Positions 9,699 to 64,000 of a stretch of 64,000 nucleotides of DNA are shown piece by piece. A program made the position numbers and the translations under genes. The notes under the pieces are model-generated. The model was not told where the DNA came from. It did no database searches and worked only from the letters and a program-made list of their open reading frames with translations. Positions within the stretch are counted from its first letter, which is position 1; each line of letters begins with the position of its first letter. This DNA comes from Chitinophagales bacterium (lineage in GTDB: Bacteria > Bacteroidota > Bacteroidia > Chitinophagales > Saprospiraceae): positions 259,949 through 323,948 of the forward strand of contig JAAFJN010000002.1 of assembly GCA_013298845.1 (NCBI GenBank), written 5' to 3'.

Positions 9699-10679
9699 AT
9701 GCATAAATTTATCTGGACTTTCATCTTTGGCCTGTTCGCGGGCGGTATTTTGGCCCAACCAACCACCCAAGTGGCCGACCAAACCTTCAAAGTAGATGGC
9801 ATTCACGAGTTTCATTACGCTTTTGCGGAAGGCGACCAAGTGACCTTGTACATCCAACTCATTGCGGGGCGGCGGCTCAAAACCGTGGAAATTATTGGTC
9901 TGCCCGACAATACCTTGTTCCGCTCTTACGAATTGGATACGGCTTTGACCAAAACCATCACCATTCCGGCCACGGGTGCGTACCTGTTGCGGGTGACCGA
10001 ACAGGGCATGGGCAAAAAAATCTGCCGGTTTACCCTGGCGCGGACGGGTTTTTCAAAAATAGATACCCGCATCGGGTGGGATATGAAGCAACAACCCGGT
10101 TTTCAGGTGTTGCGCCGCCAAATCCGCACGGGCACCAAAACCGAAATCCACTCGGTGAGCGGACAGGTGACGGTAACGGGCAGCAGCATGGGGATTCGGA
10201 ACAACCGCACATCATACCGCTTCGAACTACCGGCCAATACCGTTCGGTGGGCATATCGCGTGGGGGTCAGCCAATCGGTGCAGGAAGCGCGCCAACGCGA
10301 TGCCGCGCAGTTCAACGACCTGATCCGCAAGGGTTCAACCAAGTTAATGGCCATTCACCCCGAAACGGCACTGGCGGCGTTTGCGCTGGGTATGGCCGTT
10401 CAAATGACCACCTCTACCGGGGGCGAAGACATCGAATATGCGCTGGTGGACCCGCCAAATTTGCAAAAATTCCTGGACGGTGAAAACAAATACGACGCGC
10501 ACATCTGGCAAGGGGCCGTCAGTGTTGATGCCCAACGGCGTTATGCACCCCTCGCGGGTAGTTATGCTTTTGCCTTAAAAAACAACAACCTCGTGGACGA
10601 TGTAAACGTCAGTATTGACATTGAAGCCATTACCGAAACGCCTTTGTTTGAGGAAGAAATTTACCTTTCGCCCCGATGA
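9699..10679 (+). CDS. Secreted protein of unknown function
   Basis: 326 residues from the ATG at 9699; the signal peptide FGLFAGGILAQ ends about residue 20. The frame is open far upstream, but that part overlaps the opposite ABC gene and lacks protein character. The mature part starts with a beta-rich domain (DQTFKVDGIHEFHYAFAEGD, about 25-115) of the kind used for binding, followed by an alpha/beta region (HPETALAAFALGMAVQM). The end is again beta-rich (AGSYAFALKNNNLVDDVNV). I cannot assign a family. Its stop overlaps the yigZ start in ATGA, so the two are translated from one message. Confidence 0.75.
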   Translation: MHKFIWTFIFGLFAGGILAQPTTQVADQTFKVDGIHEFHYAFAEGDQVTLYIQLIAGRRLKTVEIIGLPDNTLFRSYELDTALTKTITIPATGAYLLRVTEQGMGKKICRFTLARTGFSKIDTRIGWDMKQQPGFQVLRRQIRTGTKTEIHSVSGQVTVTGSSMGIRNNRTSYRFELPANTVRWAYRVGVSQSVQEARQRDAAQFNDLIRKGSTKLMAIHPETALAAFALGMAVQMTTSTGGEDIEYALVDPPNLQKFLDGENKYDAHIWQGAVSVDAQRRYAPLAGSYAFALKNNNLVDDVNVSIDIEAITETPLFEEEIYLSPR

Positions 10680-11317
10680 GTGATACCTATTTAACCCTAA
10701 AAGGCCCGTCGGAAGGGGAATTTAAGGACCGTGCGAGCAAATTTTTGGCCTACGCCTGGCCCGTTCAAACGGAAGCGGCGATTGCGGAACATCTGGAACG
10801 CCTGCGCAAAACGCATTTTAAGGCCAATCACCATTGCTACGCGTGGCGGTTGGGGCGTACCGGCACCCAATTTCGCGCCAACGACGATGGTGAACCTTCG
10901 GGAACGGCGGGGCGGCCCATTCTGGCGCAAATAGACGCGGCGGGCCTCACCGATACCCTTGTGGTGGTGGTGCGTTATTTTGGCGGTACGCTGCTGGGCG
11001 CATCGGGGTTAATTAATGCGTACCGCGAATCGGCCATTGCCGCGATACAAGCGGCCGAGATTGAAGAAGTCATTTTGTACGATACCATTCATTTCGACCT
11101 CGATTATGCCCAAATGCCCGATCTGATTCAGGCCATTCATCAATTGGGCATTATCATTCGCAAAGAGGAGTTTGGCGAACGGGCCGCAATTGATATTGCC
11201 ATCCGTCAACGCGATACGGAACAAAAATTATTACAACTAAAAGCCAAAATCTGGAAAGTCAGCCCCGATGAAGCCCTGACGCTGGAATGGCCTTTTTTAG
11301 TGAAGAGTGAAGAGTGA
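10676..11317 (+). CDS. yigZ: YigZ/IMPACT family protein
   Basis: 213 residues. The N-terminal UPF0029/IMPACT domain has the hallmark NDDGEPSGTAGRPIL (about 63-77) and VVVVRYFGGTLLGASGL (about 88-104); the C-terminal ferredoxin-like domain follows (FDLDYAQMPDLIQ). Bacterial YigZ is a conserved protein of uncertain role; eukaryotic IMPACT regulates the Gcn2 kinase. The start overlaps the preceding stop by four bases. Oddly, the last codons (VKSEE and the TGA at 11315-11317) are supplied by a GTGAAGA heptamer array, so the natural C-terminus may have been replaced. Confidence 0.9.
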   Translation: MSDTYLTLKGPSEGEFKDRASKFLAYAWPVQTEAAIAEHLERLRKTHFKANHHCYAWRLGRTGTQFRANDDGEPSGTAGRPILAQIDAAGLTDTLVVVVRYFGGTLLGASGLINAYRESAIAAIQAAEIEEVILYDTIHFDLDYAQMPDLIQAIHQLGIIIRKEEFGERAAIDIAIRQRDTEQKLLQLKAKIWKVSPDEALTLEWPFLVKSEE

Positions 11318-11541
11318 AGAGTGAAGAGTGAAAAATGAAGAGTGAATAATTTGCCCGTTGTAGAGTATTCTTCTGACCACGAATTCCTAAAGAATACACT
11401 TAAATTCACTAATCATAGAGCATTCATTTTAAATGGTTTAAGTTTTTTAACGAAAAAAAAACGCTCCAACGAGCAAATTCTTCGTTTTTCACTCATCACT
11501 CTTCACTCTTCGTTTTTCACTCTTCACTCATCACTTTTCAC
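11300..11541. repeat. Inverted pair of heptamer arrays around a core (MITE-like element)
   Basis: Left arm 11300-11348: seven units, GTGAAGA four times, then GTGAAAA, ATGAAGA, GTGAATA. Right arm 11486-11541: eight units of the complement (TTTTCAC, TCATCAC, TCTTCAC). Inside the arms AATTTGCCCGTTGTAGAG near 11349 is an imperfect inverted match to CGCTCCAACGAGCAAATT near 11474-11491. The core contains AAGAATACACTTAAATTCAC and GAGCATTCATTTT, which reappear in the element at 63.6 kb. The left arm overlaps the yigZ stop; the right arm ends 9 bases before the rsmF ATG, so it forms the rsmF leader. Confidence 0.85.
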
Positions 11542-11550
11542 TATAAAAAA

Positions 11551-12921
11551 ATGTTGCCACAGCACTTTAAGACACAAATGCGCCGTCAGTTGGGAGCGGC
11601 AGAATGGGAAGCGCTGGAGGCAGCGTTGCAAACACCCGCCCCGGTGAGTATCCGGTTGAACCGGCAAAAAGCACCTGCTGACCGGTCATTATTACCCACG
11701 CCCGATGGTGCGGTGGCTTGGCATCCCGACGGGTATTATTTGTCGGAACGGCCCGTTTTTACGTTAGATCCGCTGTTTCACGCGGGTGCGTATTACGTGC
11801 AGGAGGCCTCTTCGATGTTTTTGCACGAGGTGCTGCGGCAAAGTGGTCGCAGCGGTCAATCGCTCAAGGTGCTGGATCTTTGTGCGGCACCGGGCGGCAA
11901 AACAACGCTGTTGTACGACGCTGTGCAGGCTCAATTATCGGCCAACGAAATTGTGCCCAATCGCGCCGCTATTTTGCGCGAAAACCTGGAAAAATGGGGC
12001 ATTCCCGACGCTGCCATTACTTCTTCCGACCCGATGGCTTATGAAGCTCTTATCGAGTGGTTCGACTTAATCGTGGTAGATGCTCCGTGCAGCGGTGAAG
12101 GGATGTTCCGCAAAGACCCCGACGCCATTAAAGAATGGTCGCCGGAAAACGTGGAGGTGTGCGTGGCCCGCCAAAGCCGCATTTTAGACATTGCCAAACG
12201 CGCATTGGCACCCGGTGGTTTGTTGGTGTACAGCACCTGCACCTTTAACCCACACGAAAATGAGGAACAAATGGAGCGTCATTTTGGCAACGACGATTAC
12301 CGCGAAATCACCCTGGCGTTCGACCCCGAAGCGGGCATTATGGCTTGTAGCACAGGGTTGCGCTTTTTGCCGCATCGGGTGCGCGGCGAAGGGTTTTACA
12401 TTGCGGCTTTTGAAAAAAAAGACCACAGCGGACCAAGACCTAAATTGCACCCATCGGCCGGATTTAAACACCTGACGGCTCTGCCCAAACGCCTGTACGG
12501 TGCCATTACCCCCTGGCTCGCTCACCCCGAAGATTACGGTTTATGGCAAACGCCATCGGGCGATGTACTGGCACTGCCCCTCGCCCGGGAACCGGAATTG
12601 CTGTTGTTGGATAAACACATCAAAAGCAAGTGGTTTGGCACGCACATTGGCACCTTAAAAGGCAATGATCTGATTCCGGCGCACGCACTGGCCCTGAGCC
12701 ATTTGGCCAACAATAGTATTCAGACCCTCGAACTTAGCCGCGAACAAGCGCTTATTTTTCTAAAAAAAGAAACTTTTGACCTACCAGATTCAACGCCTAA
12801 GGGCTGGACCGTGGCGCAATACAACGGACTGCCGTTGGGTTGGATTAAAGTACTACCCAACCGGATGAACAACTATTTACCCCCCGAACGAAGGATTAGG
12901 ATGGAAGTTCGCGGTGCTTAA
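11551..12921 (+). CDS. rsmF: RsmF-like 16S rRNA m5C methyltransferase
   Basis: 456 residues. This is a NOL1/NOP2/Sun family SAM-dependent RNA cytosine-5 methyltransferase. SAM-binding motif I is VLDLCAAPGGKTT (about 109-121), followed by the two family cysteines in VDAPCSGEGMFR and YSTCTFNPHENE. A PUA-like C-terminal region with short RsmF-type domains follows (LPLGWIKVLPNRMNNYLPPE). It should modify 16S rRNA during small-subunit maturation. The expected target C1407 is taken from E. coli RsmF and not shown here. Its 5' leader is made of repeat sequence. Confidence 0.9.
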   Translation: MLPQHFKTQMRRQLGAAEWEALEAALQTPAPVSIRLNRQKAPADRSLLPTPDGAVAWHPDGYYLSERPVFTLDPLFHAGAYYVQEASSMFLHEVLRQSGRSGQSLKVLDLCAAPGGKTTLLYDAVQAQLSANEIVPNRAAILRENLEKWGIPDAAITSSDPMAYEALIEWFDLIVVDAPCSGEGMFRKDPDAIKEWSPENVEVCVARQSRILDIAKRALAPGGLLVYSTCTFNPHENEEQMERHFGNDDYREITLAFDPEAGIMACSTGLRFLPHRVRGEGFYIAAFEKKDHSGPRPKLHPSAGFKHLTALPKRLYGAITPWLAHPEDYGLWQTPSGDVLALPLAREPELLLLDKHIKSKWFGTHIGTLKGNDLIPAHALALSHLANNSIQTLELSREQALIFLKKETFDLPDSTPKGWTVAQYNGLPLGWIKVLPNRMNNYLPPERRIRMEVRGA

Positions 12922-18247: not shown

Positions 18248-19165
18248 ATGCAATTTCCAAATCCCATTCCGGTTCGGGAACTCGCCCGACAATACAACGC
18301 CCAAATCATTGGTGACGACAACCTGTTGGCCACCGGTATAAACGAAATTCACAAGGTTTCGGTTGGCGACATCGCGTTTTCTGACGTGAAAAAATACTTC
18401 GATAAAACGCTGAACAGCGCGGCAACGGTGATTTTACTCAACGAACCCACCGAATGCCCACCCGGCAAAGTGATTCTGGTCGTAGAGCAGCCGTTTGAGG
18501 TCTATGACGATATCATACGCAGTTATCGCCCGTTCGAGGCACTCACTGCCGCCCGACACCCCGGTGCCGTTGTGCACCCGACGGCTATTATCGAACACGG
18601 GGTAATTTTGGCCAATCACGTCCATATCGGAGCCAACACCATTATTGGGGCCAATACTGTTGTGCACGAATACAGCATTATCGGTGACCATGTCGTTATA
18701 GGAGCGAACTGCGCCATTGGCTGCGACGCTTTTTATTTCAAAAAAACCACCGAAGGCACGTTTACGCCCTGGCGTTCGGGAGGGCGAACTATTATTCACG
18801 ATCATGTTCACATTGGGGCCGGGTGTACGATCTCGAAAGGGGTCAGTGGCGACACGGTGATTGGCAAAGGTTCTAAACTGGACTGCCAAATTCACATTGG
18901 GCACGGGGCGGTGATTGGCGAAAACTGCCTTTTTGCGGCGCAAGTGGGCATTGGTGGCAAAACCATCGTGGAAGATAACGTTGTTTTGTACGGACAAGTC
19001 GGTATCGCGCAGGCGTTGAACATCGGGAAAGGAGCAGTCGTATTGGCCAAATCGGGCGTATCAAAATCGCTGGAAGGTGGCAAAACGTATTTTGGCATTC
19101 CGGCCGAAGAAGTACGGACCAAATACCGCGAATTGGCCGCACTCCGGCAGTTGGGGAGAAAGTGA
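18248..19165 (+). CDS. lpxD: LpxD-like UDP-3-O-acylglucosamine N-acyltransferase
   Basis: 305 residues. Residues 1-100 form the uridine-binding domain; residues 105-290 are hexapeptide repeats of a left-handed beta helix (HPTAIIEHGVILANHVHIGA, GANTIIGANTVVHEYSIIG). The catalytic His lies in the LpxD-type segment IHIGHGAVIGEN. The enzyme adds the N-linked 3-hydroxyacyl chain in lipid A synthesis at the cytoplasmic face. It is somewhat shorter than E. coli LpxD, and no lpxA, lpxC or fabZ is beside it, so it may be a second paralog. The stop codon TGA (19163-19165) belongs to the first heptamer of a repeat array. Confidence 0.88.
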   Translation: MQFPNPIPVRELARQYNAQIIGDDNLLATGINEIHKVSVGDIAFSDVKKYFDKTLNSAATVILLNEPTECPPGKVILVVEQPFEVYDDIIRSYRPFEALTAARHPGAVVHPTAIIEHGVILANHVHIGANTIIGANTVVHEYSIIGDHVVIGANCAIGCDAFYFKKTTEGTFTPWRSGGRTIIHDHVHIGAGCTISKGVSGDTVIGKGSKLDCQIHIGHGAVIGENCLFAAQVGIGGKTIVEDNVVLYGQVGIAQALNIGKGAVVLAKSGVSKSLEGGKTYFGIPAEEVRTKYRELAALRQLGRK

Positions 19166-19252
19166 AAAGTGAAGAGTGAAAAGTGAAGAGTGAAGAGTGA
19201 AGAGTGAAAAGTGAAGAGTGAAGAGTGAAGAGTGAAAAGTGAAGAGTTAAGA
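19162..19252 (+). repeat. Heptanucleotide array at the 3' end of lpxD
   Basis: Thirteen contiguous 7-base units: twelve are GTGAAGA or GTGAAAA and the last is GTTAAGA. The first unit provides the lpxD stop. The period of seven moves TGA through all three frames within 21 bases. The complementary strand has no stop codon in any frame. Confidence 0.95.
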
Positions 19253-19284: not shown

Positions 19285-19650
19285 ATGAAAAAAGAGACTT
19301 TTGTTGCGCTTTTGGCGCTTGTTTTGGGCATTTATGCCTGCCAACAACCGATGCAGGGAACTGCGCAGGAGGCGGTACCGGAAGAGAAAGTAGCCAAAAT
19401 TATCGCCGAAATCGCGTTGGCGGAAGGTGCCGTTTCGGCCCTGACGGGTTTTAAACGGGATAGTTTTGTCCATTCATACTACAAACAAATTTACGAGATC
19501 AACGGCATTACGCTGGAGGACTACGAAAAATACCTGCGCATTTTGGCCAATGACACCGAACGCCTCGAAGGGGTGGTGAAAAAAGCCGAGCAGTATTTAA
19601 AGGACAAACAACCAGCCCCTACCGCCCAAGATTCGATCCCCAAAAAATGA
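19285..19650 (+). CDS. DUF4296 family lipoprotein
   Basis: 121 residues. Lipoprotein signal LALVLGIYAC with Cys at about 19. The mature part is helical: AKIIAEIALAEGAVSALTG, then YYKQIYEINGITLEDYEKYL and a charged coiled stretch ending PIPKK-like SIPKK. DUF4296 proteins are found in Bacteroidota and have no known function. The stop overlaps the next start in ATGA, so it is coupled to the DUF2520 gene. Confidence 0.85.
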   Translation: MKKETFVALLALVLGIYACQQPMQGTAQEAVPEEKVAKIIAEIALAEGAVSALTGFKRDSFVHSYYKQIYEINGITLEDYEKYLRILANDTERLEGVVKKAEQYLKDKQPAPTAQDSIPKK

Positions 19651-26301: not shown

Positions 26302-26312
26302 ACCTTTTTTTA

Positions 26313-26384
26313 GTGAAAATTGAAGAGTGAAGAGAGAAGAGTGATGAGAGATAAGATTTTTACTCATCACTCATCTCTCATAAC
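26313..26384. repeat. Degenerate inverted heptamer arrays downstream of argS
   Basis: Left arm 26313-26354 has six units (GTGAAAA, TTGAAGA, GTGAAGA, GAGAAGA, GTGATGA, GAGATAA). Right arm 26364-26384 has TCATCAC, TCATCTC, TCATAAC. The right arm starts five bases after the argS stop and, on the argS strand, reads GTGATGA-like. Confidence 0.8.
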
Positions 26385-26388
26385 TTCC

Positions 26389-28236
26389 CTACATTCTTTC
26401 CGGCATGTCAATACCGAGTAATTTCATGCCCGATTCCAGCACTTTACCCGTAGCTTTGCTCAGTTGCAACCGGAATGCCCGTGCTTCGGGTGTTTCGGCG
26501 GACATCACTTTTACATCGTGCCAAAAACGGTTAAATTCTTTAGCCAAATTGTAGCAATACGACGCCAAATGCGAAGGATCATATTCGTCAGCGGCCTGTT
26601 GAACGGCAGCCGGATATTCGTACAACGCCTTTAAAAGTTCTTTTTCAATGGGCAAAATATCGGTGTAACCGTTAAAATTGCTCATGTCAATTTGTTCGGC
26701 GCTCACCCGTTTCATAAGGCCGTGCGTCCGAACAAACGAATATTGGATAAACGGTCCCGTTTGTCCCAGCAACTCCACCGATTCTTCCGGGTTAAATACC
26801 ATCCGTTTGCGCGGATTTACCCGCAGCATAAAGAATTTGAGGGCCGCCAATCCAATTTTTTGAATCGTGTCTTGTTGTTCTTCGGGCGAAAGTTCGGCGA
26901 TTTTTTCGGCGCTGGCTTCTTTGGCGAGGCGTTCCACTTCGTCCATGAGGTCATCGGCGTCCACAACGGTGCCTTCCCGGGTTTTCATTCTGGCACCGTG
27001 GGGCAGTTCTACCATGCCGTACGACAAGTGATACAACCCGGCGGCGTAGGGTTCTTCAAAACGTTTCAGAATCTCGAATAACACCGAGAAGTGATAGTTT
27101 TGCTCATCGGCCACGGTATAAACTACTTTTTCGGCTCCAAAATCTTCGTAGCGCATCCGGGCAGTACCGAGGTCTTGGGTGATGTACACCGAAGTGCCGT
27201 CGGAGCGGAGCACCAATTTGTGGTCGTACCCGGCATCGGTGAGGTCAATCCACACCGAACTATCTTCTTTTTGGTAAAAAATGCCCTTGTTAATGCCTTC
27301 TTCGACGAGGTCTTTGCCCAACAAATAGGTATTGCTTTCGAAGTATAACTTGTCAAAAGCCACGCCCATGCGGTGGTACGTGGTATCAAAACCGGCGTAC
27401 ACCCAATTGTTCATCTGTTGCCAAAGGGCCACGGTATCCGGGTCACCGGCTTCCCATTTCAGGAGCATATCGCGCACCTCGGCCCCGAGTTTGGAATGGG
27501 TATTAAACCATTTGTTTTTGTATTCGCCGAAAAATTCTTTTTCGGTGAGTTCGGTTTTGGTCCGGCTGGCAAAAAGCGCTTTTGCTTCGTCGGTATCTTG
27601 CCAGGCGGCGTATTCGGCGCGGCTTTTGTTTTCAAACAGAACGTAATAATCGCCCACAAAATGGTCGCTTTTAATGCCTTCGCTTTCGGGCGTTTTGCCT
27701 TCGCCGAAGGTTAGCCAGGCGTACATACTTTTACAAATGGCCACGCCCCGGTCGTTGATGATCTGAACTTTAACCACATCGTACCCCACGGCATCGAGGA
27801 TTTGGCTGCATGACCAGCCGAGCAGGCAGTTCCGCACGTGCCCGAGGTGGAGCGGTTTATTGGTGTTGGGCGACGAGTATTCGACCATCACCTTGCGGCC
27901 ATTCCGAGGCTGCCGACCGTAATCGGCGTTGTTGTTCATATCGGCCAAAAAATCCAGCCACCAGGTATTGCTGATTTCGAGGTTTAAAAAGCCTTTAATC
28001 ACGTTAAAACCTTTTACAAAAGGCATATTTTCTTGCAAATAAGCGCCAATTTCGGCACCGGTTGCTTCGGGGGCTTTTTTGGCAGCGCGCACAAACGGGA
28101 AAATCACAATGGTGTAATCGCCCGTGAATTCGGATGGGGTAGGGTTTACCTGCACCGCATTGGCTTCGGTGGGCGTGGCGTAAAGTTGGGAAACGGCCGT
28201 TGCAACGGCGGATTTGATGTGGTCTAAAATGCTCAT
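26389..28236 (-). CDS. argS: Arginine--tRNA ligase
   Basis: 615 residues. The class I synthetase charges tRNA-Arg with arginine in the cytoplasm. Visible: N-terminal Add-1 domain (to about 105), HIGH-type motif PLHLGHVRN (about 128-136), the KMSKS-equivalent region HGARMKTREGT, and the C-terminal helical anticodon-binding domain ending LESGMKLLGIDMPERM. The start overlaps the mnmH stop in ATGA, so mnmH and argS form a translationally coupled pair. Confidence 0.97.
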   Translation of the reverse strand: MSILDHIKSAVATAVSQLYATPTEANAVQVNPTPSEFTGDYTIVIFPFVRAAKKAPEATGAEIGAYLQENMPFVKGFNVIKGFLNLEISNTWWLDFLADMNNNADYGRQPRNGRKVMVEYSSPNTNKPLHLGHVRNCLLGWSCSQILDAVGYDVVKVQIINDRGVAICKSMYAWLTFGEGKTPESEGIKSDHFVGDYYVLFENKSRAEYAAWQDTDEAKALFASRTKTELTEKEFFGEYKNKWFNTHSKLGAEVRDMLLKWEAGDPDTVALWQQMNNWVYAGFDTTYHRMGVAFDKLYFESNTYLLGKDLVEEGINKGIFYQKEDSSVWIDLTDAGYDHKLVLRSDGTSVYITQDLGTARMRYEDFGAEKVVYTVADEQNYHFSVLFEILKRFEEPYAAGLYHLSYGMVELPHGARMKTREGTVVDADDLMDEVERLAKEASAEKIAELSPEEQQDTIQKIGLAALKFFMLRVNPRKRMVFNPEESVELLGQTGPFIQYSFVRTHGLMKRVSAEQIDMSNFNGYTDILPIEKELLKALYEYPAAVQQAADEYDPSHLASYCYNLAKEFNRFWHDVKVMSAETPEARAFRLQLSKATGKVLESGMKLLGIDMPERM

Positions 28237-29255: not shown

Positions 29256-29309
29256 TTTTTCAGTGATGAGGTTATGGTGGTGTTATGCCTCCTTTAATGT
29301 CTCCGCCCT

Positions 29310-29370
29310 CCATTCTCCGTTCTCCGTAGCGACGGGTTTGAAACCCGTCGCTACGGAGAACGGAAAACGG
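29310..29370. repeat. Long near-perfect palindrome after secA
   Basis: TTCTCCGTAGCGACGGGTTT (29320-29339), one-base centre, then its exact complement at 29341-29360; outer ten bases pair with two mismatches. It begins eight bases beyond the secA stop. No T-run follows on the secA strand, so it is not a standard intrinsic terminator, although the stem could protect the mRNA end. It resembles REP-type elements. Confidence 0.85.
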
Positions 29371-29377
29371 AAAAAAA

Positions 29378-47746: not shown

Positions 47747-48556
47747 ATGAACTTCGAATCTTATATACGATCAGGCATTTTGGAGTCTTACGCACTCGGG
47801 TTGGGTACACCCGCCGAGCGCGCCGAGGTGGAGCGCAACATTGCGCAATACCCCGTATTGGCTGCCGAATTGAAAGCCATCGAGGATTCGCTCGCCGCTT
47901 ATGCCCAGGCACACGCCATTGCTCCACCAGATGGTCTGAAAAGTAAAATTCTGGAGAAAATCGAGTCGGAAATGAAAGCCCCCACGCCCGAACCTACCCC
48001 TGATCCTCCTTCTTCGGAGGGCGGTAGCGGCGGCGGTTGGACCCTTAAATCACTGTTGCCTTGGTTTATTGCCGGCATTGCAGTTGCTTTGGGGGTTGCA
48101 TTGTGGACCAGCAAAACCGAATATCGCGAGCAACAGGCTTTGATGCGCACGATGGAGCAACAATTGAAAGATTGTAAATCAGACAGTATGCTGCAACAGC
48201 AGTTACGACAAGATATGGCTTTCATCAACGATCCGGCTACCCGCCGGATTGATATGCTGGGCGACGTGGGCGGACAACTCTCGGTGTATCTCAATGCCTC
48301 CCAACAGGCAGTATTTGCCACCACCGCCCGGATGAAACCACTCCCGGCCAACCAAGACTATCAATTGTGGGTAATTGTAGAAGGTAACCCGAATCCGGTT
48401 CCGTTGGAAGTATTCCAGCCCGGCAGCGATCCTTTAGCACTTGTCCCCGTCTCTTTCCGCGAAAAAGTACAAGCTTTCGCCGTATCACTCGAACCCAAAG
48501 GTGGCAGCCCCGACGGTAAACCCACCCAAGTGCTCATGATTGGAGCATTAAGTTAG
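47747..48556 (+). CDS. RskA-type anti-sigma factor
   Basis: 269 residues. Cytoplasmic part about 1-100 (GILESYALGLGTPAERAEVE, a typical RskA start) without the zinc-binding HxxxCxxC motif; one membrane helix LLPWFIAGIAVALGVALW (about 102-119); and a periplasmic RskA domain (LNASQQAVFATTARMKPLPA, QLWVIVEGNPNPVPLEVF). It should sequester the adjacent sigma factor until proteolysis releases it. A perfect 14-bp tandem repeat starts two bases after the stop. Confidence 0.92.
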   Translation: MNFESYIRSGILESYALGLGTPAERAEVERNIAQYPVLAAELKAIEDSLAAYAQAHAIAPPDGLKSKILEKIESEMKAPTPEPTPDPPSSEGGSGGGWTLKSLLPWFIAGIAVALGVALWTSKTEYREQQALMRTMEQQLKDCKSDSMLQQQLRQDMAFINDPATRRIDMLGDVGGQLSVYLNASQQAVFATTARMKPLPANQDYQLWVIVEGNPNPVPLEVFQPGSDPLALVPVSFREKVQAFAVSLEPKGGSPDGKPTQVLMIGALS

Positions 48557-48558
48557 GA

Positions 48559-48670
48559 GTGAAAAGTGATGAGTGAAAAGTGATGAGTGAAAAGTGATGA
48601 GTGAAAAGTGATGAGTGAAAAGTGATGAGTGAAAAGTGATGAGTGAAAAGTGATGAGTGAAAAGTGATGA
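48559..48670 (+). repeat. Perfect 14-bp tandem array (GTGAAAAGTGATGA x 8)
   Basis: Eight identical 14-base units, each two heptamers, with no variation over 112 bases. It begins two bases after the anti-sigma stop codon, in the sense of that gene. Perfect copies suggest recent expansion, so the copy number may vary between strains. Confidence 0.97.
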
Positions 48671-48693
48671 ATTGATACTGTTTTATACAAAAA

Positions 48694-48726
48694 AGCCATA
48701 GCATCCTGGATGCTATGGCTTTTTTT
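48694..48726. terminator. Strong bidirectional intrinsic terminator
   Basis: AGCCATAGCATCC-T-GGATGCTATGGCT with 13 perfect pairs, followed by TTTTTT and preceded by AAAA. It ends the sigma/anti-sigma transcript and can act on the opposite transcript too. Confidence 0.92.
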
Positions 48727-48833
48727 GATGCGCCCCGCACTATTGGCGTTATAGGTTATACAAAAATCCGTGAAAATCCGTGTCCAATCCTATCACAAAC
48801 GACCGATACCCAACTCATCACTTCAAAAAAAAC

Positions 48834-48896
48834 TCTTCACTTTTCACTCTTCACTTTTCACTTTTCACTCTTCACTTTTCACTCCTCACTCATCAC
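48834..48896 (-). repeat. Heptamer array overlapping the end of the FAD oxidoreductase gene
   Basis: Nine units of the complement type (TCTTCAC, TTTTCAC, TCCTCAC, TCATCAC). On the minus strand these are GTGA heptamers, same sense as the FAD gene, and its stop codon at 48879-48881 lies inside the array. Together with 48559-48670 it forms an inverted pair around the terminator. Confidence 0.93.
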
Positions 48897-50024
48897 TAAC
48901 TCCGCCCCTTCGCTGCCGACCAGCGAGCCAATGGCCACGCCCATGCCGCTCATGCGTACAGCGACCGTTATAGAGGGTGACACCCGTTCGATAATTGGTT
49001 TTTTTACCGGCCCAAGGCCCAATATACCCGTCCACCACATTTCCGGGGCTAGTTGTTGATCGGGACAAATAACGTTGTGCAGGAGGTCCAGCAACGCCGC
49101 CCGAATTTTTTCATTGGGGCCAAACGCATCCGTTGTTTCCGTTTCCCGGTCCAAATTGCGCCCGCCACCCAGTAAAATACGCCCGTCAATGTTGCGGAAA
49201 TAAAAATACCCGCGATCGTAGTGGAAACACCCCTCCACCTTGAGGCCCGGAACCGGCGGCGTAATGAGCACCTGATTGCGGGCGGGCACTACTGCCAACG
49301 CCGGTAATAACCGCGCCGCAAAGCCATTGGTACACACCAGTAATTTTCGGGCCGATAACGACCACCCGTGTTGGGTCTCCAAGATGGCCCGGTTGCCTTC
49401 GTCGTGCAGCGCCGTCACTTGGATTCCGTTGAGCAGTTCAATTCCCAACGCCTGCGCCCGCGTCAGCAACGCCGACATCATTTTACCCGTGTGGATTTGC
49501 CCCTCTGCCTGGTTGAGAAGCAGGTGCCGAACGCCTTTAAACCCAAATTTGGGCAATTGCTGATCGGCAACCGTGTACACTTCCCGGTGTCCGGTAATGT
49601 CCCCGGCGATTTGGTTAAAGGCCGCTATGTGCGCGCAACATTGTTCAAAATCATCGGTATCCTGCTCGGTAAACATTTCGTAACCGCCGTGCCCTTTGTA
49701 ATCAATGGGCGCATCTCCGGTGATGGCGCGGAGGCGTTGCAACCCTTTCCAACGGCGTTCGACGGTGTGCCACACCTCCATTTCGGGCATGTGCGTCATG
49801 TCGTCCAAGAGTTCGGTCATGGAGCCGAAACAGGCAAAGCCAGCGTTGCGTGTACTGGCACCCACCGGCAGCCCGCCGCGTTCCACCACCACAACCCGCA
49901 GGGCAGCATCGAGTTCTTTGAGCCGAATGGCGGCCGTTAAACCCACCAGTCCACTGCCCAAAATGGCCACATCAATGCCGCTGAGGAACGATTCCCGCTC
50001 CCAATAACTCAGTTCGTATTGCAT
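48879..50024 (-). CDS. FAD-dependent oxidoreductase (DAO family)
   Basis: 381 residues. Dinucleotide-binding VAILGSGLVGLTAAIRL (about 19-35), then VVVVERGGLPVGASTRNAGF, and the DAO-type segments ALLTRAQALGIELLNG and FYFRNIDGRILLGGGRNLD. It probably oxidises a secondary amine or amino acid with FAD; the substrate is not known. The last residues (MSEE) and stop come from the heptamer array, so the natural tail may be replaced. It ends 11 bases before the TPR membrane protein gene region starts on the same strand. Confidence 0.88.
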   Translation of the reverse strand: MQYELSYWERESFLSGIDVAILGSGLVGLTAAIRLKELDAALRVVVVERGGLPVGASTRNAGFACFGSMTELLDDMTHMPEMEVWHTVERRWKGLQRLRAITGDAPIDYKGHGGYEMFTEQDTDDFEQCCAHIAAFNQIAGDITGHREVYTVADQQLPKFGFKGVRHLLLNQAEGQIHTGKMMSALLTRAQALGIELLNGIQVTALHDEGNRAILETQHGWSLSARKLLVCTNGFAARLLPALAVVPARNQVLITPPVPGLKVEGCFHYDRGYFYFRNIDGRILLGGGRNLDRETETTDAFGPNEKIRAALLDLLHNVICPDQQLAPEMWWTGILGLGPVKKPIIERVSPSITVAVRMSGMGVAIGSLVGSEGAELVMSEE

Positions 50025-53092: not shown

Positions 53093-55114
53093 TTGGAATT
53101 TAAACTCACATCCAATTATAAACCCACGGGAGACCAACCCGTGGCGATTCAGCAATTGGTAGAAGGTATCGATCAGGGGGACCGCGCACAGGTTTTGTTG
53201 GGCGTAACCGGCTCCGGTAAAACCTTTACCATGGCCAATGTCATTGCCAAAGTGAATCGGCCTACGCTCATTTTGACCCACAATAAAACCCTCACCGCGC
53301 AACTTTACGGCGAATTTCAAAATTTTTTTCCCGAAAACGCCGTGGAGTACTTCGTGAGTTATTACGATTATTACCAGCCCGAAGCCTACGTGGCGGTGTC
53401 GGATACCTACATTGAAAAAGACCTCCAGATCAACGATTTGGTGGATAAACTGCGTCTCAAAGCGACGTCTACACTATTGTCGGGGCGGCGCGATATTATT
53501 ATTGTGGCTTCGGTATCGTGTATTTACGGTATGGGTAACCCCGATGATTACAAATCGGGTATTATTCGCATTGAGAAAGGCCAAAAAATACCCCGTACCC
53601 AATTCCTGTACGCGCTCACCGATAGTCTTTATTCGCGCACGGAAGTGGAATTTGGCCGCGCCAATTTTCGGGTAAAAGGTGATACCGTGGACATTAATTT
53701 GCCGTACGCCGATTGGGGTTATCGCGTCATTTTTTGGGGCGACGAAATCGAAACCATCGAAACCATCGAAAAAGAAACGGGCAAACGCCTCCAAAGTATA
53801 GACGAAGCGGCCATTTATCCCGCTAATCTGTACATTGCGCCCAAAGACCGTATCCATCAGATTATCAATGAGATACAGGATGAAATGGCCCAGCAGGAAA
53901 AGTATTTCATCCGCGAGGGCCGTTCTCTCGAAGCCAAACGGATTCGCGAACGCACTTCTTTTGACCTTGAAATGATTCGTGAGTTGGGGTATTGCAGCGG
54001 TATTGAAAACTATTCCCGCTTTTTTGATCGGCGCGAGCCGGGTGCCCGTCCGTTTTGTTTGATGGATTATTTCCCCGATGATTTTTTGTTGATTGTGGAC
54101 GAAAGCCACGTTACTGTGCCGCAATTGCGCGGTATGTGGGGAGGCGACCGCGCGCGCAAACAAATGTTGGTGAACTACGGTTTCCGCCTGCCATCGGCCA
54201 TTGATAACCGCCCGCAAAGTTTTGAAGAGTTTGAATCCCTGATCAATCAGGTGGTATTTGTAAGTGCAACCCCCGCCAATTACGAGTTGGAAAAAACCGA
54301 AGGCATCGTAGTGGAGCAGTTGGTGCGCCCAACCGGGTTGTTAGATCCGCCGATTGAAGTGCGCCCGTCGCTCAATCAAATTGACGATTTGATGGAGGAA
54401 ATTCAAAAAAGAATTGACGTCAACGAACGAACTTTGGTCACTACGCTCACCAAACGAATGGCCGAAGAATTGGCCGCTTATCTCATTCGCCTCAACATCA
54501 AGTGCCGTTATATTCACTCGGAGGTAGAAACCCTGGAGCGCGTGGAAATTATCCGCGACCTGCGCCTCGGCGAATACGATGTTTTGATCGGGGTTAACCT
54601 TCTGCGCGAAGGTCTGGATATGCCGGAAGTGTCATTGGTGGCCATTTTGGACGCCGATAAAGAAGGTTTTTTGCGCAATGCCCGCTCTTTAACCCAAACG
54701 GCCGGCCGCGCCGCCCGTAATTCCAACGGTTTGGTTATTTTTTACGCCGATAAAGTTACCGACGCGATGCAGGATACCATTGACGAAACCAATCGCCGCC
54801 GTTCCATCCAAATTGCCTACAACGAAGAGCACGGCATTACGCCGCGCACCGTTTCGCGCACGCGAGAGGAGATTATGAACCAGCGCAGTATCCTCGATGT
54901 GCGCGGTACCGAACCCACGGCTTACATTGAGAAAGAAGAAATTAACCTCGCCGCCGAACCAATTTTGGCCTACGCCAGTCGCGGACAATTGGAAAAAATG
55001 ATCCAACAAGCGGAGGACAATATGAAAAAAGCCGCCAAAGACCTCGATTTCCTTTCCGCCGCCCAGTATCGCGACGAAATGAATGCTTTGAAAAAAATGT
55101 TGAAAAGTGAATAG
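53093..55114 (+). CDS. uvrB: UvrABC system protein B
   Basis: 673 residues. The start is a TTG at 53093: a stop lies at 53075 in frame and the first later ATG is inside the ATPase domain. It reads EFKLTSNYKPTGDQP, Walker A LGVTGSGKTFTMAN (about 37-50), the damage-probing beta hairpin YYDYYQPEAYV, helicase motif VDESHVTVPQL, LTQTAGRAARN, and a C-terminal UVR motif (MIQQAEDNMKKAAKDLDF). It verifies DNA damage in nucleotide excision repair. The last codons (LKSE and TAG) overlap a heptamer-like sequence. Confidence 0.97.
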   Translation: MEFKLTSNYKPTGDQPVAIQQLVEGIDQGDRAQVLLGVTGSGKTFTMANVIAKVNRPTLILTHNKTLTAQLYGEFQNFFPENAVEYFVSYYDYYQPEAYVAVSDTYIEKDLQINDLVDKLRLKATSTLLSGRRDIIIVASVSCIYGMGNPDDYKSGIIRIEKGQKIPRTQFLYALTDSLYSRTEVEFGRANFRVKGDTVDINLPYADWGYRVIFWGDEIETIETIEKETGKRLQSIDEAAIYPANLYIAPKDRIHQIINEIQDEMAQQEKYFIREGRSLEAKRIRERTSFDLEMIRELGYCSGIENYSRFFDRREPGARPFCLMDYFPDDFLLIVDESHVTVPQLRGMWGGDRARKQMLVNYGFRLPSAIDNRPQSFEEFESLINQVVFVSATPANYELEKTEGIVVEQLVRPTGLLDPPIEVRPSLNQIDDLMEEIQKRIDVNERTLVTTLTKRMAEELAAYLIRLNIKCRYIHSEVETLERVEIIRDLRLGEYDVLIGVNLLREGLDMPEVSLVAILDADKEGFLRNARSLTQTAGRAARNSNGLVIFYADKVTDAMQDTIDETNRRRSIQIAYNEEHGITPRTVSRTREEIMNQRSILDVRGTEPTAYIEKEEINLAAEPILAYASRGQLEKMIQQAEDNMKKAAKDLDFLSAAQYRDEMNALKKMLKSE

Positions 55115-55145
55115 GTTTTTAGTGATGTCTCTCATCACTCATATC
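55107..55145. repeat. Short degenerate heptamer pair at the uvrB 3' end
   Basis: GTGAATA at 55107 includes part of the uvrB stop; GTGATGT near 55122 and TCATCAC at 55132 form a small inverted pair. It lies in the 34-base gap between convergent uvrB and photolyase genes. Confidence 0.5.
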
Positions 55146-55148
55146 TCT

Positions 55149-56573
55149 TTACTGCGCCCATTTATCAATGCGGACGACGGCTTTGGGGTATTGGGTCATT
55201 TTATACGCCATGCGTTGAGCGTTGTTGAGCAGATCGGGGCGATGGATGAATTCTTTGGGCACCAACCGAAGTTCGGGGCACCAAATTCGGACAAAATCGC
55301 CGTTTAAATCGTAGTTTTTAGCCTGGGTCAGGATATTAAAATAACGGTCTTCGCGCGGGTCACTGCCCACCCCGGCCACGTAATTCCAGTTCCCCCAGTT
55401 GCTGCACGGATCATAATCGAGCAAAAGACTCTCGAAGTATTCGGCGCCCATTTGCCAATTTACTTTTAAATCGCGCACCAAAAACGACGCCACATTTTGG
55501 CGGCCCCGGTTGCTCATCCAGCCGGTTTCGGCCAGTTCACGCATGTTGGCATCCACAAAAGGTACGCCGGTGCGCCCCTCGGCCCACACGTTAAACATCT
55601 CGTAGTTATTGCGGAGTTGTTTGAGCGATTTGTTGTGGGTTCCTCCTTTCAAAAAAATGCGATTGCCGTGTTTTTTGCCCATTAAACGGAAAAAATCGCG
55701 CCAAAGCAGTTCAAAAAACAACCAATACGTACTTTCATTACTGGTGCGCTCGGCTTCGTAGCGGCGTAATTCGGCGTATATGTACTTGGGTGACAAACAG
55801 CCGGTGGCCAACCAAGGCGAGAACTTGGAGGAATAATCCGGCCCGATGAGGCCGTTTCGGGTTTGTTTGTAGGTGGCCACGGCGTTGGAACCCCACAAAT
55901 AATGTTTTAGCCGTTTAATGCCCTCGGTTTCGCCGCCTTTAAAATCAAGGGCCGCGGAAGCCGACGTCGTAAAGGGTTCGTGACCGAAATCAATTAAATC
56001 AGGAACGTTGCCCAATTCTACCTCTGCGGGCAGGGCGGGCATACTCACCGGCGTAGGCAAGGGCGGACGAATGGCCGTTACCCCTTCCGTTTCTTTTCTA
56101 AAATGCGAAAACACATCGGGGATATGTTGCACCGGAGCGGGTAAATCTTGCGTGTGGTAGAGCATTTTGCCCCGGGTAAAAATCAATTCGATGCCACAAT
56201 CCCAAAGTTTTTTTTCCAGTTTATCCTGTACCAACACCTCCTCGTGGGTGCGTTCGCGGTTGCAAAAAACCCACGAACAATGGTGTGCTTTGGCCATATC
56301 GGCCACAATTTCTTCGGGTATTCCGACCCGAACGACCAAATCTGAACCAATACGGCGCAAATTTTCTTTCAAATTGCGAATGCACTCGAGGATAAATTTG
56401 GCTCTGAATTTTCCGGTTTTTGCAAAGCCAAACCGCGTTTGGCCCCGAAAAATACGTTCGTCAAAAATGTAAACCGGGATAACTTCGTCGGCCATGCGCA
56501 GGGCATTGGTAATCGCTTCATTATCGTGCAATCTCAAATCATTGCGAAACCATACTATGGCGCGTCTTCTCAT
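55149..56573 (-). CDS. DASH-type cryptochrome/deoxyribodipyrimidine photolyase
   Basis: 474 residues. N-terminal photolyase domain starting AIVWFRNDLRLHDNEAI (about 5-21) binds the antenna folate. The FAD-binding domain (about 220-450) has GVPFVDANMRELAETGWM, SNRGRQNVASFLVRD and the DASH-like DYDPCSNWGNWNYVAGVG then DPREDRYFN. It uses blue light to repair cyclobutane pyrimidine dimers, in DASH proteins preferably in single-stranded DNA. It is convergent with uvrB, so two UV-repair genes stand side by side. Confidence 0.94.
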   Translation of the reverse strand: MRRRAIVWFRNDLRLHDNEAITNALRMADEVIPVYIFDERIFRGQTRFGFAKTGKFRAKFILECIRNLKENLRRIGSDLVVRVGIPEEIVADMAKAHHCSWVFCNRERTHEEVLVQDKLEKKLWDCGIELIFTRGKMLYHTQDLPAPVQHIPDVFSHFRKETEGVTAIRPPLPTPVSMPALPAEVELGNVPDLIDFGHEPFTTSASAALDFKGGETEGIKRLKHYLWGSNAVATYKQTRNGLIGPDYSSKFSPWLATGCLSPKYIYAELRRYEAERTSNESTYWLFFELLWRDFFRLMGKKHGNRIFLKGGTHNKSLKQLRNNYEMFNVWAEGRTGVPFVDANMRELAETGWMSNRGRQNVASFLVRDLKVNWQMGAEYFESLLLDYDPCSNWGNWNYVAGVGSDPREDRYFNILTQAKNYDLNGDFVRIWCPELRLVPKEFIHRPDLLNNAQRMAYKMTQYPKAVVRIDKWAQ

Positions 56574-63471: not shown

Positions 63472-63566
63472 TAAGGTGGTTTGTCAAAAACATCCTTCTG
63501 CCTTGAGTGAAGTACGCATATAAAATAGATTAGTGTTATGAAAACGAAAACCAACCTCTTTTTTTA

Positions 63567-63740
63567 GTGAAAAGTGAAGAGTGAAGAGTGTAGAGTGAAG
63601 AGTGAAGAGTGAAAAATTTGCTCTTCGCAGAGTGCTTTCACCACTAAGGGTATAAGAATACACTAAGATTCACTAAGCGTAGAGTGTTCATTTTGAATTT
63701 TTTAAAAAATATTTTTCACTCTTCACTATACACTTTTCAC
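63567..63740. repeat. Second copy of the MITE-like heptamer element
   Basis: Left arm 63567-63615: seven units (GTGAAAA, GTGAAGA, GTGAAGA, GTGTAGA, GTGAAGA, GTGAAGA, GTGAAAA). Right arm 63713-63740: four units of the complement. The core shares AAGAATACACTAA, ATTCACTAA and TTCATTTT with the 11.3 kb element, and both left arms run into AATTTGC. Confidence 0.85.
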
Positions 63741-63810: not shown

Positions 63811-63852
63811 GTCTAATGTCTTTTGTCTAATGTCTTTTGTCAAACGTCTTAA
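63811..63852 (+). repeat. Second heptamer family (GTCTAAT/GTCTTTT)
   Basis: Six units: GTCTAAT, GTCTTTT, GTCTAAT, GTCTTTT, GTCAAAC, GTCTTAA. Two related units occur reversed at 40444-40457. It ends 7 bases before the ATG of the last gene. Confidence 0.75.
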
Positions 63853-63859
63853 AAAAAAC

Positions 63860-64000
63860 ATGATCAATTTAAAAAATATAGAACGCTATTACCAAAATGG
63901 GGCGCAAAAAACGTACGTATTGCGCTATATCACCACCCAAATTAAAGAAGGGGAGTTTGTGAGCATTATGGGTCCTTCGGGGTCGGGAAAGAGTACATTG
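63860..64000 (+). CDS. ABC transporter ATP-binding protein, cut by window edge
   Basis: 47 codons from the ATG at 63860: NLKNIERYYQNGAQKTYVL, then IKEGEFVSIMGPSGSGKSTL with the Walker A motif. The start closely follows the MacB/LolD pattern, like the ATPase gene upstream, so the locus seems to encode two ATPases for related exporters. Everything after Walker A lies outside the window. Confidence 0.88.
   Translation, partial: MINLKNIERYYQNGAQKTYVLRYITTQIKEGEFVSIMGPSGSGKSTL

Follow-up and report, generated by a model that had tools for sequence, protein, structure and literature searches.

Heptanucleotide arrays at coding edges in a member of the Saprospiraceae as possible arms of intergenic inverted-repeat elements

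The lpxD gene (CDS 18248-19165) in the 64,000-nucleotide stretch of DNA analysed here (the window) has its stop codon inside the first unit of a GTGANNA heptamer array at 19162-19252, which raises the question of whether such arrays sit at gene ends because they supply stop codons. The first-pass annotation had proposed this for the lpxD array and for arrays at yigZ, argS, an anti-sigma gene, a FAD oxidoreductase gene and uvrB, each in the sense of the gene that it ends. The lpxD array is present as described, and the three-unit pattern GTGANNAGTGANNAGTGA has 39 exact matches in the window and 0 in 100/100 dinucleotide shuffles. The arrays at the yigZ, anti-sigma and FAD genes also match their description; those at argS and uvrB are present but both degenerate, where uvrB alone had been called weak. 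Family models confirmed the gene names YigZ, LpxD, ArgS, anti-sigma and UvrB, and FAD-oxidoreductase models match the FAD gene, but below their cut-offs. The earlier description lacked the mirror partners at 11486-11541, 48834-48896 and 63713-63740, the degenerate ones at argS and uvrB, and two further heptamer units (29300-29374 and 63811-63850). The features of the window are:

11300-11348, plus strand: left arm of 7 units, GTGAARA and variants; provides the yigZ stop (CDS 10676-11317)
11349-11485, no strand: core with the repeat module GCCCGTTGTAGAGTATT, a module found again in other gaps
11486-11541, minus strand: right arm (reverse complement of GTGANNA), 9 bases short of ATG 11551 of an RsmF-like methyltransferase gene
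19162-19252, plus strand: single arm 3' of lpxD; 13 units, of which 12 are exact GTGANNA and the last is GTTAAGA
26312-26348, plus strand: degenerate left arm with a T-run before it
26361-26386, minus strand: degenerate right arm adjoining the argS stop (CDS 26389-28236, minus strand; ends by eye)
29300-29374, no strand: inward-facing TTCTCCG heptamer pair flanking the palindrome GTAGCGACGGGTTTGAAACCCGTCGCTAC (by eye)
48552-48670, plus strand: left arm of 17 units, the last 16 a perfect (GTGAAAAGTGATGA)8
48671-48833, no strand: core, with a palindrome at about 48690-48727 that has A-run and T-run ends and is terminator-like by eye
48834-48896, minus strand: right arm of 9 units; provides the FAD oxidoreductase stop (CDS 48879-50024, minus strand)
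55107-55152, no strand: highly degenerate pair, flanked by uvrB (stop 55112-55114) and a minus-strand DASH cryptochrome gene (stop 55149; ends by eye)
63567-63615, plus strand: left arm of 7 units, preceded by TTTTTTTA
63713-63740, minus strand: right arm of 4 units
63811-63850, minus strand: AGAC-family array (outward AGACATT/AGACAAA) upstream of an ATG near 63860 (by eye; the family name is our own coinage)

The arm at 19162-19252 is without a mirror arm, the next ATG being at 19285, and the arm at 48552-48670 overlaps the anti-sigma stop codon (CDS end 48556). Arms adjoin starts as well as stops, a point absent from the earlier description: the one at 11486-11541 ends 9 bases upstream of ATG 11551. 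An intrinsic terminator scan of the 48671-48833 core reported none, despite the palindrome visible by eye, and Rfam at gathering thresholds returned only a tRNA in the whole window. A very short frame at about 63538-63567, ATG...TTTTTTTAG, leads into the array; by eye, it may be what is left of a gene start that the array cut off.

We examined arm geometry in a sample of one genome (G000; 1,261,365 of 6,367,938 bases, 19.8%, the window included), with genes called by a home-made dicodon caller whose starts are rough and whose stops are firmer. Some sampled stretches were chosen where matches were already listed, so array densities are biased; the geometry should not be. The whole genome, in 89 contigs, has 397 forward and 511 reverse matches to GTGANNAGTGANNAGTGA, overlapping ones counted, and a backwards-pattern control (447/550 vs 397/511) is uninformative because the reversed pattern hits the same arrays. 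Among tandem arrays of periods 2-40 in 824 kb, period 7 accounts for 37, all noncoding, and periods 14, 21, 28 and 35 for 31, 10, 11 and 8. The other periods that are not multiples of 7 have 0-7 arrays each (at most 7 for period 24 and 5 for period 15), with none at periods 2-6, 8, 10, 11 and 13 in the same 824 kb. Tandem 7-nt units in excess of chance are thus present, as in heptameric simple sequence repeats.

The sample contains 62 GTGANNA arms, 46 of which have a mirror partner within 450 bp and 16 of which stand alone. Mirrored pairs always place GTGANNA on the left and its reverse complement on the right, facing inward; the reverse order was found 0 times. None of the 62 arms lies inside a called CDS. 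Of 58 usable arms, 50 have a coding edge no more than 25 bp from their outer end and 0 from their inner end; the CDS edge nearest to any inner end is 32 bp away. The first-pass annotation had suggested a comparison with random positions: when the arms were placed at random in their own gaps, 12.0 outer ends on average, and at most 21, fell within 25 bp. The outer edge is a 3' end for 43 arms, a 5' end for 18 and not called for one. Arms at 3' ends lie at -22 to +10 bp in 40/43 cases, and within 25 bp of 3' ends 40 arms are in the sense of the adjoining gene and 0 are antisense, in support of that annotation. Of the 18 arms at 5' ends, 7 leave a spacer of 7-9 bases to the called start, or 8 arms when ATG 11551 is taken as the start, and the spacer is usually an A-run by eye. 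Divergent gaps hold 3/58 arms; divergent pairs make up 153/943 neighbouring gene pairs.

The same polarity is found with other heptamers. G000 also carries GAACAYC and AGAC arrays, and the congener G027 carries GTGAGAR, GTTATNN and AGTCC arrays. Over five families in the two species, 103/107 edges with an array within 30 bp read outward (G000: GTGA 54/55, GAACAYC 11/12, AGAC 4/4; G027: GTTAT 12/13, GTGA 18/19, AGTCC 4/4). These counts drop unassignable arrays (22 in G000, 1 in G027), and a further 21 and 14 arrays, respectively, lie away from edges. The 49/52 edges counted as non-GTGA are to be read as consistency and not as prediction, because the outward strand was named from partly the same data. 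Units also differ at the same place in different congeners: 3' of lpxD there is GTGAARA in G000 and GTTATTA/GTTATCC in G006, which makes the origin and turnover of the arrays testable. After one same neighbour gene of the lpxD region, G027 and G030 have a GTGAGAA mirrored pair (L082) and a GTTATTC array (L083), and in the congener G007, which lacks GTGA arrays, a heptamer array of GTTGTTC units is present instead at C1:230744-230863.

Arrays of five GTGANNA units occur in 50/395 genomes sampled from the phylum. A collection of named genomes, which may lack the window's own genome, holds at least 116 GTGANNA stretches, 80 of them listed with titles; the matches listed come from Bacteroidota, Acidobacteria, Planctomycetota, Geobacter, Clostridia, one cyanobacterium and others. 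We placed 134 arrays among these matches against mechanical ORFs, after 11 more at ends had been dropped. Among the matches listed, 56 3' edges are outward and 5 inward, a count confounded by ORFs that read through the stop-free strand; there are 11 inward pairs and 0 outward pairs. Arrays inside mechanical ORFs, again among the matches listed, are antisense in 18 cases and sense in 0. In 15/19 rows the distance to the ORF start is at most 200 bases, which looks like start-side arms swallowed by over-long ORFs. The GTTATCN unit is present in 13/395 genomes and follows the outward rule more weakly, with 15 outward and 7 inward edges.

The arrays also bear on how proteins end. The stop codon lies within the array in 18/43 3'-end arms, and the overlaps between array and CDS are 4 bases (4 arms), 11 (3) and 18 (7), which are the three possible frames and account for 14/18 arms. 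The YigZ protein ends in WPFLVKSEE, and SEE is absent from all 13 relatives. LpxD ends in QLGRK, a different and shorter tail than in five relatives (those among 19 loci for which the lpxD frame was picked out), whose proteins continue from QLP/MLP several residues further. Both the YigZ and the LpxD tail are encoded by the array. Since both tails differ from those of relatives, the arrays appear to have replaced the native C-termini of YigZ and LpxD. The first-pass annotation had named two outcomes that would count against it, namely arrays without a 3'-end or strand preference and orthologs ending in the same SEE residues, and neither occurred. The arrays illustrate a way for noncoding repeats to rewrite protein C-termini and stop codons.

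Comparison of related genomes shows how the arrays change. G008 and G023 are sibling species with about 90-95% identity in aligned flanks. We probed 17 of 27 arms listed in G008 and found 13 flanks in G023 (12 loci, two of the flanks being arms of one gap); all 13 have a heptamer array at the corresponding edge, and in most the number of units has changed, a change between relatives that is also characteristic of heptameric simple sequence repeats. These comparisons revealed small rearrangements at the outer array boundary. Four more loci were compared, picked because arrays are present in both species. At one locus both arms differ alike, with GTGATGA in G008 and AATGATG in G023, which hints at a coupling between arms; at L192/L199 only one arm seems to differ (by eye). 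The cores mostly align (by eye), although those of L184 and L187 do not. Nested TTTTAGTGA pieces occur at the outer ends of GTGA arrays in G008 (L187, L191, L172) and G023 (L162), a pattern that suggests that sequence has turned over repeatedly right where the gene ends or begins. In G003, whose LpxD is the closest among the congeners (81%), no four-unit GTGANNA match occurs. Probes found 7/13 loci there, of which 1/7 is syntenic across the gap (93 bp vs 237) and contains a short degenerate heptamer stretch (by eye); the far-side gene was found in 2/7 only, and we draw no inference about breakpoints. No empty site was seen in the relatives compared (in G003, 7 loci found), which counts against the joint origin of the arms proposed below.

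Paired arms nearly always belong to one family. Inward-facing neighbours are of the same family in 27/29 cases in G000 and 14/15 in G027 (permutation means 17.9 and 5.4; none of 10,000 permutations reached either count), and 49 neighbouring array pairs comprise 44 inward, 5 tandem and 0 outward. In 23 GTGA pairs, the two arms are barely more alike than arms taken across pairs (composition p 0.047, complementarity p 0.12), which makes arm-to-arm covariation a weak sign of pairing, and arm lengths are not correlated (rho 0.25, p 0.25). Given this weak likeness and the uncorrelated lengths, joint origin followed by independent change fits better than continued selection for pairing.

Any explanation has to account for arrays that stand at coding edges, read outward, mostly form one-family pairs around a core and differ by whole units between sibling species. 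The stop-cassette proposal starts from the TGA codons that arrays bring in all frames: at 3' ends such arrays would be favoured by selection or tolerated, with orientation as a consequence. GTGA arrays have the required property, since in G000 they close all three frames outward in 64/65 cases and on the other strand in 1/65, and both the stops within arrays at 3' ends and the (confounded) excess of outward 3' edges among the matches listed agree with it. Outward polarity is, however, equally present at start codons, where no stop is needed (14/15 GTGA edges in G000). The mean number of frames closed on the outward and the other strand is 2.98 vs 0.37 (G000) and 2.83 vs 0.38 (G027) for GTGA, 1.0 vs 0.14 for GAACAYC, 1.39 vs 2.83 for GTTAT, 2.67 vs 1.67 for AGTCC and 2.0 vs 2.0 for AGAC. 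Stop content per strand thus varies by family and polarity does not follow stop codons in general: GTTATNN, whose stops are chiefly on the opposite strand, is outward at 12/13 edges, and GAACAYC, with about one frame closed, at 11/12. As a general cause of orientation the proposal is largely refuted, and we consider it improbable overall; supplying stops looks like a side effect of the array layout. A function in RNA is somewhat less improbable, though still unlikely: paired arms would form hairpins in untranslated regions that protect, process or insulate the neighbouring mRNAs. The gap at 11293-11551 folds at -88.5 kcal/mol (z -10.7; 0/200 shuffles as good), both arms of a gap come from one family, and divergent gaps hold few arms. 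A reversed arm order would pair equally well, yet it is absent; degenerate positions and arm lengths are unmatched between arms; and 16/62 arms are single.

We regard it as almost equally unlikely that the arms are the terminal inverted repeats of a MITE-like element moved by a transposase. In favour, 7/16 G000 cores have a relative elsewhere in an 864-kb sample (best 93% over 81 bp, C4:85042 vs C4:111598). The module GCCCGTTGTAGAGCGTT has 17 intergenic matches in 1.26 Mb, against 3 matches in shuffled sequence of 724 kb; an array lies no further than 60 bp away on the outer side of 7/17 and on one side or the other of 9/17. The other 9/16 cores are without a relative in the sample, and this shared inner motif was rejected as an obligate terminal repeat because arrays are absent nearby at 8/17 intergenic matches. 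Y1 transposase domains occur in 47/60 genomes, including the window's own, but their counts do not track the abundance of arrays (G018 carries arrays yet lacks a Y1 domain), so we rejected this transposase as the driver; a Y1 transposase tracking the repeats, as in REP/RAYT systems, was not seen in a search that covered the Y1 domain family. Reverse transcriptase was likewise rejected as a driver, since RVT_1 counts do not track arrays. Two side observations concern the cores. GAACAYC elements (G000 C5:24092-24333, C1:86262-86455, C4:110546-110749) appear by eye to have a common core of about 150 bp, and look more like mobile elements than GTGA ones do. A CACTAAG-rich repeat module lies in or beside heptamer gaps (11390-11441, 63654-63705, G000 C4:3921-3994 and C2:96899-97178), as if repeats were nested within repeats. 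A further alternative, and by far the least probable to us, is DNA-end repair in which a unit is added in a template-directed manner to both 3' ends of a break, giving X...X' with any unit. By reasoning alone it would predict the geometry, the one-family rule and the independence of sequence. We know of no enzyme for such addition, though, and RVT_1 matches are absent in the array-rich G006, G008 and G027; moreover, cores align between siblings, some cores look native, and no breaks were observed.

The reading that we prefer, at somewhat less than an even chance, is that each array is an arm of an intergenic heptamer inverted-repeat element whose arms arise together, slip by 7 bp and incidentally supply stops. 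A single event at the DNA level would create or bring in both arms of a gap as a palindrome, and their polarity would be kept by descent. Arm lengths would then change independently through 7-bp replication slippage, and single-base unit variants could spread to give species dialects. At a 3' end, an in-array stop would be tolerated and become the gene's stop, with the last few residues rewritten; at a start, the arm would end before reaching the A-rich stretch that precedes the ATG. The long hairpin in the untranslated region would be a by-product of the paired arms. The unpaired arms (16/62), the core relatives (7/16, which favour a mobile element) and the possible coupling between arms count against this element with co-arising arms. 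Inheritance alone also does not explain a polarity that is common to several units and to the published ones of Xanthomonas and Nostoc. A broader process that is agnostic to sequence and builds 7-nt arrays outward from both coding edges, with any unit and in several phyla, is a long shot in our estimation. If true, for example as templated addition or copying at DNA ends beside the intergenic gap, it would turn the quadruplex accounts (Xanthomonas, Nostoc) and the regulatory account (TAACTGA) into local readings.

Heptamer repeats are known from several lineages. Cyanobacterial STRR heptamers are reportedly degenerate 7-nt arrays, and the Nostoc tRNA-Leu intron is said to contain heptanucleotide hairpins with complementary arms. 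Heptamer elements have been described in Geobacter (PMC2700814), and heptamers are the commonest long simple repeats according to Mrazek (2007, as cited in PMC4679880 and PMC4692102). The polymerase-slippage account of that work shares the period of 7 with our arrays and, as cited in those two papers, does not address orientation or pairing. The first-pass annotation had held the 3'-end bias to be undescribed; similar placement has in fact been published for other heptamers (PMC4692102; PMC4679880), while for units without G-tracts we found no precedent. In the literature searched, with most subscription papers outside the search, we found no account of this geometry for such units and no paper joining heptamer, tandem repeat and Saprospiraceae.

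TAACTGA heptamers form intergenic arrays for which a stop-codon constraint was stated, and they are present in five Bacteroidetes (MacGregor, 2015; PMC4679880). In the Beggiatoaceae genome BOGUAY, TAACTGA forms 169 sets of direct repeats, each with two to six copies, and a single inverted repeat; most of the repeats lie just upstream of starts (PMC4679880). This placement, as given there, equals the outward orientation of GTTATCA, and GTTATCN in G027 is the same unit; G000 has 0 three-unit GTTATCN matches and does not carry it. In Microcystis aeruginosa the orientation of 22 intergenic TAACTGA sets is mixed, with 6 directed toward starts, 8 directed away and 8 between stops (PMC4679880), which speaks against a universal outward rule.

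The closest parallel is that of the GGGAATC heptamers of Xanthomonas and the GGGGA(C/T)T heptamers of Nostoc, which are mostly intergenic (Rehm et al., 2015; PMC4692102). They are reported to lie on the sense strand near stops, which they overlap, and antisense upstream of starts; convergent cases number 70 and 75 in the two Xanthomonas studied, and few repeats lie between divergent genes. In a sister species 83% have the same context with a variable unit number. Their G-tracts form quadruplexes in vitro, and no regulatory role is reported for them (PMC4692102). Our arrays are alike in being sense at stops, antisense upstream of starts (103/107) and present in convergent pairs (PMC4692102). 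Unlike those heptamers, GTGANNA, GAACAYC, GTTATNN, AGTCC and AGAC contain no GGG, and because G-tracts are absent we do not assign them to the same family. One-family pairing and independence from stop codons, both tested here, set the present analysis apart from that of Rehm et al. (2015; PMC4692102). Heptamers at ORF edges have so far been tied to quadruplexes or to sequence-specific RNA regulators. The same polarity without G-tracts, and with stops on either strand, means that neither a quadruplex nor a particular sequence is required. The ORF-edge heptamers described here have a geometry that depends neither on G-tracts nor on stop codons.
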